A stretch of DNA of 64,000 bases from Chthonomonas calidirosea. Lineage in GTDB: Bacteria > Armatimonadota > Fimbriimonadia > Fimbriimonadales > Fimbriimonadaceae. This document shows, piece by piece, positions 20,443-20,928 of the stretch (positions within the stretch are counted from its first letter, which is position 1; every line of letters begins with the position of its first letter). Position numbers and translations under genes: made by a program. The stretch covers positions 62,001 through 126,000 of the forward strand of contig CAMCWC010000009.1 of the NCBI GenBank assembly GCA_945882415.1. Reading direction: 5' to 3'. A model generated the notes under the pieces. It did no database searches. It was not told the DNA's origin and saw only the letters and a list, made by a program, of their open reading frames with translations.

Positions 20443-20492
20443 CGCTTTGTATTGCTTTGTGTGGCCTTGAATTGCCCTGTGTGGCTTTAGAG
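20443..20492 (+). repeat. Decanucleotide array, distal arm of the groES-groEL cassette
   Basis: Five 10-nt units read on the plus strand: CGCTTTGTAT, TGCTTTGTGT, GGCCTTGAAT, TGCCCTGTGT, GGCTTTAGAG. The last unit overlaps the stop codon of the S23-type gene (20487-20489). The register and consensus (GGCTTTGTGT) match the other three arrays in this window. Confidence 0.8.
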
Positions 20493-20900
20493 TTTTCGCT
20501 TAGTGGTGACGAGGTCGTTTTCGACTTTCGTTGCAAGATTTCTCAGCTTGACGCCGAGAGCAGTTGATCTCGTGAGCATCGTTTCCCGGTCTGGTTCTGA
20601 CACCATTTCCAAATCGCTCGAAATGCAAAACAAGGTTTCAACCTCGTTCAACGATCCTAGAGCGATCCGGAGAAACCTGAGAAACTCCGCGTCGGAATCT
20701 CTGCCCGCTCCTTCCGCTATGTTGGATGGAATTGAAACGCTTGCTCGTCGAATCTGGCTAGTCAGTCCGAACTGCTCCTCTCTCGGGAAGCGGCTCGTGA
20801 CTTCATAGCACTGCACAGCGAACTCTCGTCCCAAAATCCACACCTCTAGCTTTCGAAAATCTCGCACCGTGATTAGCTTCTCAAAGCCATGCAGAGCCAT
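20487..20900 (-). CDS. Four-helix-bundle protein, S23/IVP family
   Basis: 137 residues from ATG 20900; GTG at 20867 ([10 protein letters not shown]) may be the true start because family members usually begin near that motif. Signatures are the N-terminal D-F-R-K-L-x-[26 protein letters not shown] and [15 protein letters not shown]. Helices cover the whole length. The family is known from open frames inside 23S rRNA intervening sequences and as stand-alone genes; it forms ring-like oligomers and its job is unknown. With the ATG start, the first eight or so codons come from the flanking decanucleotide array. It sits between groES and groEL, on their strand. Confidence 0.85.
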
Positions 20901-20928
20901 TCAAAGCCAAGCAAGGCTACACAAAGCG
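20879..20928 (-). repeat. Decanucleotide array, proximal arm of the groES-groEL cassette
   Basis: Five 10-nt units read on the minus strand: CGCTTTGTGT, AGCCTTGCTT, GGCTTTGAAT, GGCTCTGCAT, GGCTTTGAGA. The ATG of the S23-type frame spans the third and fourth units. The array begins 6 nt after the groES stop codon. Confidence 0.8.

Follow-up and report, generated by a model that had tools for sequence, protein, structure and literature searches.

The closest described relatives of the element analysed here are the intervening sequences (IVSs) of 23S rRNA genes, which in Leptospira and Coxiella carry an open reading frame of the S23/IVP family (PMC4990558). The Coxiella IVS has tandem heptamers (GACAGAT) in its 5' part and a 28-bp terminal stem, and rRNA IVSs that bear S23 are cleaved in the stem and excised by RNase III (PMC4990558). 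In REP/RAYT systems, the gene (RAYT, REP-associated tyrosine transposase) is bracketed by inverted copies of a repeat, further copies of which are scattered over intergenic regions without the gene (PMC2817692). Beggiatoaceae contain intergenic direct arrays of the 7-nt unit TAACTGA, which are patchy between relatives, of unknown origin and without a reported link to S23 (PMC4679880). In the open-licence literature, we found no paper tying S23 to tandem or dispersed arrays or to operon spacers. In the foldback transposons of eukaryotes, a variable interior is enclosed by terminal inverted repeats that are themselves built of short tandem subrepeats. We know of no source for the dispersed heptamer arrays of bacteria.

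In the window, the 64,000-nt stretch of DNA analysed here, groES (Cpn10; 20935–21225; PF00166, E 1.1e-33) and groEL (Cpn60; 18780–20405; PF00118, E 1.7e-77) form a minus-strand operon in which the groES stop and the groEL ATG are 529 nt apart, close to the roughly 530 bp given in a preliminary description of the locus. Inverted-repeat and profile searches confirmed its further claim that the spacer contains one S23/IVP gene (20487–20867, minus strand) and two inverted arms of 46 nt. Read on the sense strand (minus), the 5' arm next to groES (20883–20928) is a G/T-rich decamer array with the tip CGCTTTGT, and the 3' arm next to groEL (20443–20488) is the complementary, A/C-rich array. The arm tips CGCTTTGT/ACAAAGCG and the five 10-nt units per arm ([T/C]TTGnnTGGC on the gene strand) were as described earlier, but the estimate of about 40 of 50 matching positions was slightly generous, as the arms are 78% complementary over 46 nt (36/46). 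Their alignment score was 27, compared with a maximum of 16 in 30 shuffles, and no Rfam match was found within the cassette. A Shine-Dalgarno-like AAGGA before groEL (20413–20417, minus strand), conserved with the sister genome G014, lies outside the cassette. Consensus scans placed a promoter-like site upstream of groES (21292–21321) and a terminator-like hairpin after groEL (18733–18763), both on the minus strand, and detected neither kind of site on the sense strand of the cassette; co-transcription with groESL is therefore likely. A tRNA gene (18584–18657, minus strand; Rfam RF00005) follows directly downstream of the hairpin.

The cassette gene belongs to the S23/IVP family of four-helix-bundle proteins: its product exceeds the curated cut-offs of PF05635 (E 9.5e-35; 119.5 bits, cut-off 33.8) and NCBIfam TIGR02436 (113.1 bits, cut-off 24) and matches PDB 2gsc (E 5.5e-20). 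Translation probably starts at the GTG at 20867, as this codon aligns with the ATG of the genes in G012, G041 and G084, to yield a protein of 126 aa; the arms would therefore lie almost wholly outside the reading frame. An alternative ATG at 20900, which falls within the 5' arm, would yield 137 aa. Close pairs of S23 genes from lineages other than that of the window had dN/dS values of 0.04–0.18, which indicates purifying selection in these lineages and speaks for a mobile cassette. Against mobility, no nuclease, transposase or recombinase domain was recognisable in S23; the only families matched by the cassette gene were S23/four-helix-bundle families, and it has no tyrosine (HUH Y1) transposase.

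Like a 23S rRNA IVS, the cassette carries an S23 frame between complementary ends that are able to form a stem. Unlike an rRNA IVS, it sits in an operon spacer, has a unit of 10 nt and shares its arms with copies dispersed through the genome; because of its location outside rRNA, we call it IVS-like rather than an IVS. A search for conserved rRNA motifs at 261 loci returned none, and an rRNA context for the relatives was dropped. In the predicted fold of the spacer RNA the arms pair end to end (−198.7 kcal/mol, z −7.4), consistent with the earlier proposal that they could pair in the groES–groEL transcript. A duplex selected in the sense transcript should tolerate G.U-type mismatches more readily than A.C mismatches. 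Across arms, however, 152 mismatches were of the G.U type and 241 were A.C, and their ratio differed little from that obtained after whole-unit shuffling (0.387 versus 0.392 when shuffled). Permuting the order of the units kept 84% of the arm score, and arm matching was register-specific at only 23 of 111 loci, the window locus not among them. It is the shared unit, and not one particular duplex, that the arms conserve. The idea of an IVS-like element in an mRNA spacer thus held for its architecture, an S23 frame with complementary ends, and lost support where it invoked selection on a cleavable sense-RNA stem, given the missing G.U excess and the low register specificity. Pairing or cutting could still take place, because tandem arms can pair in several registers.

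To follow the spacer among relatives, 85 genomes of the family Fimbriimonadaceae were searched, of which 58 could be scored; in the remainder groEL did not adjoin groES, was cut off, or lay beyond a longer gap without S23. G010, in which the contig ends before groEL, was counted as filled. An S23 gene occupied the spacer in 29/58 genomes, each time co-directional with the operon, whereas the other 29 had an S23-less spacer of 1–145 nt. The gene and its arms are hence not shared by all relatives, and the preliminary view of an insert with empty sites at related groESL loci agrees with the many empty and swapped sites. The 29 filled spacers comprise 23 short cassettes, most of them flanked by arms whose short tandem units vary from one species to another, and six armless S23 genes with a long Arg/Gly-rich tail (G018, G001, G015, G002, G010 and G003). 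The tailed loci (L034, L035, L037, L038, L043 and L039, and also L016 in G009) have an Arg/Gly/Asp-rich repetitive tail and form a single clade, which looks like an S23 retained as a stable operon gene. In five genomes (G074, G066, G072, G023 and G021; L144, L189, L157, L195 and L196), open frames of 190–266 aa that lie ∼2 kb past groES, where they seem to follow groEL, gave weak partial matches to the S23 profile.

Sister genomes differ at this site. The window's genome (G000) and G014 encode the same groES protein and share 99.7% identity in groEL over the compared stretch, but only 47% between their S23 proteins. Their DNA matches closely as far as the groES stop; identity then disappears across the arms and the gene and returns ∼30 nt before groEL, just upstream of the AAGGA, a profile that places the exchange from arm to arm. 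The near-identical sisters G073 and G074 carry S23s of two different clades in the spacer, G060 is filled whereas its sister G057 has an empty spacer of 1 nt, and G023/G049 are likewise a filled and empty pair. Comparison of G000/G014, G057/G060 and G023/G049, the flanks of which are short and diverged, revealed no target-site duplication. On a quick groES+groEL tree with several weak forks, the occupant of the spacer changes ∼20 times, and on the S23 tree (117 columns, many weak forks) the groESL S23s are spread over several lineages that also include S23s found elsewhere. In G042, G043, G075 and G083, S23 lies, too, between a second groES and a groEL with ∼61% identity to the first groEL. 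Together, these comparisons show that the S23 occupant of the spacer has been repeatedly replaced or lost.

To place the cassette among S23 genes in general, we compiled 165 non-redundant genes, 84 from the order (mostly the window's family) and 81 from many phyla; the latter were picked as the nearest relatives of the query, which means that the sample is not unbiased. With a threshold score of at least 18 for the 5' flank against the inverted 3' flank, 73% of the 165 genes had matching inverted arms, compared with 3% of cross-paired flanks and 1% of random windows. The 27% without clear arms count against the cassette being mobile. Arms are tandem arrays, with a best period of 7 (or 14) in most and 8–11 in others, and a mean autocorrelation of 0.72 versus 0.45 in shuffled arms. 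Arm units were alike only between alike S23 proteins, even across sites (382 different-site pairs with at least 50% S23 identity; 0 of 2000 permutations reached the observed value). GTTCGG units, for example, flank S23 in the groESL operons of G014 and G074 as well as at a different site in G023. These patterns show that each S23 lineage has its own arm unit, also where the sites differ. Like the TAACTGA repeats of Beggiatoaceae, S23-type arrays are intergenic direct arrays of a short unit and patchy among relatives, but no repeated TAACTGA was found among the arms of S23 loci. Beyond the family, most cassettes occupy gaps between co-directional genes: by simple ORF calling, the two neighbours were on the same strand as S23 in 60/79. 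Flanking pairs, assigned by eye from their sequences, include fadA-fadE, fadB-fadA, leuC-leuD, sdhA-sdhB and mutA-mutB. In Bacteroidota, two S23 genes (L134 and L064) share one operon and occupy its fadB-fadA and fadA-fadE gaps (genes again by eye). S23 is also present between motB-like and motA-like genes at L024 and L225 (G003 and G041) and at L006 (G018); at L024 and L225 it is antisense to both neighbours, unlike in the groESL cassettes.

A feature that the preliminary description had not foreseen is that the cassette arms are, by pattern search, copies of an array that recurs at many places in the genome. Using two and a half decamer units as the pattern and its reversal as a control, we obtained 84 matches in the window's genome (control, 2), which group into 34 arrays: the two arms of its single S23 gene and 32 places without S23. 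Two of these S23-less arrays lie in the window (27370–27411, minus strand; 40111–40153, plus strand). The cassette gene is thus flanked by inverted copies of a genome-dispersed repeat, as in REP/RAYT systems, although most of the dispersed arrays are single rather than inverted pairs, which argues against mobility. At 27245–27440 and 40110–40260 of the window, composite intergenic repeats place a decamer array, in many cases together with a GTTCGG array, beside a palindromic core (TAATTAACGTTCCCCCxxGGCGGATTAATTA); such repeats also occur at L306, L307, L309–L312, L318, L319 and L321, and G014 has their parts in a different order at the matching place.

Among 22 chosen genomes, the decamer (type I) was abundant in G000, G014 and G048 only. 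GTTCGG arrays (type II) were abundant in eight (9–134 matches) and nearly absent in the other 14. Four of the eight have an S23 with GTTCGG or GTTAGG arms (G014, G074, G060 and G023), three are sisters of such carriers (G000, G073 and G057), and the eighth is G070. Three genomes stand against a mobile cassette: no S23 of matching unit is known for the type I arrays of G048 or the type II arrays of G070, and G053 has arms without dispersed arrays. In G075, scattered elements without S23 have the form (GTAAATC)4-GCCGGA-[variable interior]-TCCGGC-(GATTTAC)4 (ten read). The ends of the S23 cassette at C284 in the same genome are nearly identical to those of these foldback elements, and the groES–groEL spacer of G075 contains a gene-less pair. 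The interior differs in each of the foldback loci (L322–L331) and in L326 contains a nested inverted array of another unit. Like eukaryotic foldback transposons, the cassette has terminal inverted repeats made of short tandem subrepeats; unlike them, it is bacterial and very small and has S23 as its sole gene, and no target duplication was seen in the sister comparisons.

Four other explanations were weighed against these data. The cassette might be an IVS-like element kept for RNA processing, whose arms pair in the groESL mRNA and are cut by RNase III to shift the groES:groEL ratio. The IVS-like anatomy, the predicted end-to-end pairing, the uniform orientation of the spacer S23 genes (29/29), the S23 in second groES–groEL pairs and the known excision of S23-bearing rRNA IVSs all fit this explanation. 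We nonetheless consider it unlikely, as G.U mismatches are not in excess over A.C, the unit order can be permuted at little loss, the arms are copies of an array found at 32 other places without S23, and half of the relatives lack the cassette in this spacer. A related proposal, in which the 3' arm, rich in C and poor in G, would serve as a Rho loading site that pairing with the 5' arm conceals, so that the cassette sets read-through into groEL, could draw on the nearly fixed polarity of the arms (C>G in 113/119 3' arms, G>C in 110/119 5' arms) and on the unit spacing of 7–11 nt. The same polarity could, however, stem from Shine-Dalgarno-like G-rich sequence in the 5' arm, and many arms measure just 30–50 nt; the Rho proposal is the least probable of the four.

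Alternatively, S23 might be a passenger between arrays that owe their movement to some unrelated enzyme, for instance a transposase of the RAYT type. That most arrays lack S23, that S23 has no catalytic domain and that the arrays of G048 and G070 lack a matching S23 would be expected for a passenger. Chance capture, though, would not repeatedly yield lineage-specific inverted arms, and in most lineages from many phyla S23 is flanked by inverted matching arms, each lineage with its own unit and the units going with the S23 lineage; we regard a passenger role as quite improbable. Vertical inheritance, by which S23 would be a long-standing groESL operon gene that diverged fast and was lost many times, agrees with the co-directional S23 in 29/58 genomes and with the conserved tailed S23 of six genomes, which forms one clade. 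As a full explanation it is contradicted by near-identical sister pairs with S23s of different clades, the tailed clade excepted, and groESL S23s cluster and share arm units with S23s at other sites; we give it very little credence.

Our preferred explanation, to which we assign a probability of about 55%, is that the insert is an IVS-type mobile S23 cassette in an operon spacer and, within a dispersed family of arrays, the sole member that carries a gene. It is favoured by the swaps between sister genomes, the ∼20 changes of occupant and the S23 genes in second groES2-groEL2 pairs; by the 73% of S23 genes with arms and the units that track S23 lineage; by the 34 arrays accompanied by one S23 gene and the G075 foldbacks that share the cassette ends; and by type II arrays that are abundant chiefly where a genome, or its sister, has an S23 of cognate unit. 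The element would then best be read as REP/RAYT-like in logic, with a repeat that is dispersed without the gene and a unit specific to the lineage of that gene, and without a recognisable transposase among the domains of its own gene. It differs from REP/RAYT in that S23 is a four-helix bundle without a transposase domain and in that its repeat consists of 10-nt units in tandem rather than of a short palindrome. According to this model of a mobile cassette, the insert, which has no recognisable promoter of its own, would be transcribed together with groESL, and the S23 protein, a solved relative of which is a pentamer, would recognise its own unit. S23 and host enzymes might then spread or maintain the arrays. 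In the transcript, the arms can pair, and RNase III may cut them in the manner known from rRNA IVSs; such a cut could be tolerated, as groEL retains a ribosome-binding site of its own.

A broader generalisation, which we advance tentatively and hold to be possible rather than probable, is that S23 genes form a widespread class of bacterial mobile elements without a recognisable transposase, in which S23 recognises the inverted short tandem arrays of its foldback cassette and acts in trans to spread arrays that lack S23; rRNA IVSs and some dispersed heptamer arrays of bacteria would be special cases of this class. What S23 proteins and rRNA IVSs do, and where they come from, has been described as unclear (PMC4990558). 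If S23 cassettes and dispersed arrays are one system, straightforward assays of binding and mobility could test all of these. The spacers of groESL and other housekeeping operons would then be recurrent sites for cassettes, which would alter the spacing and the mRNA structure between coupled genes.
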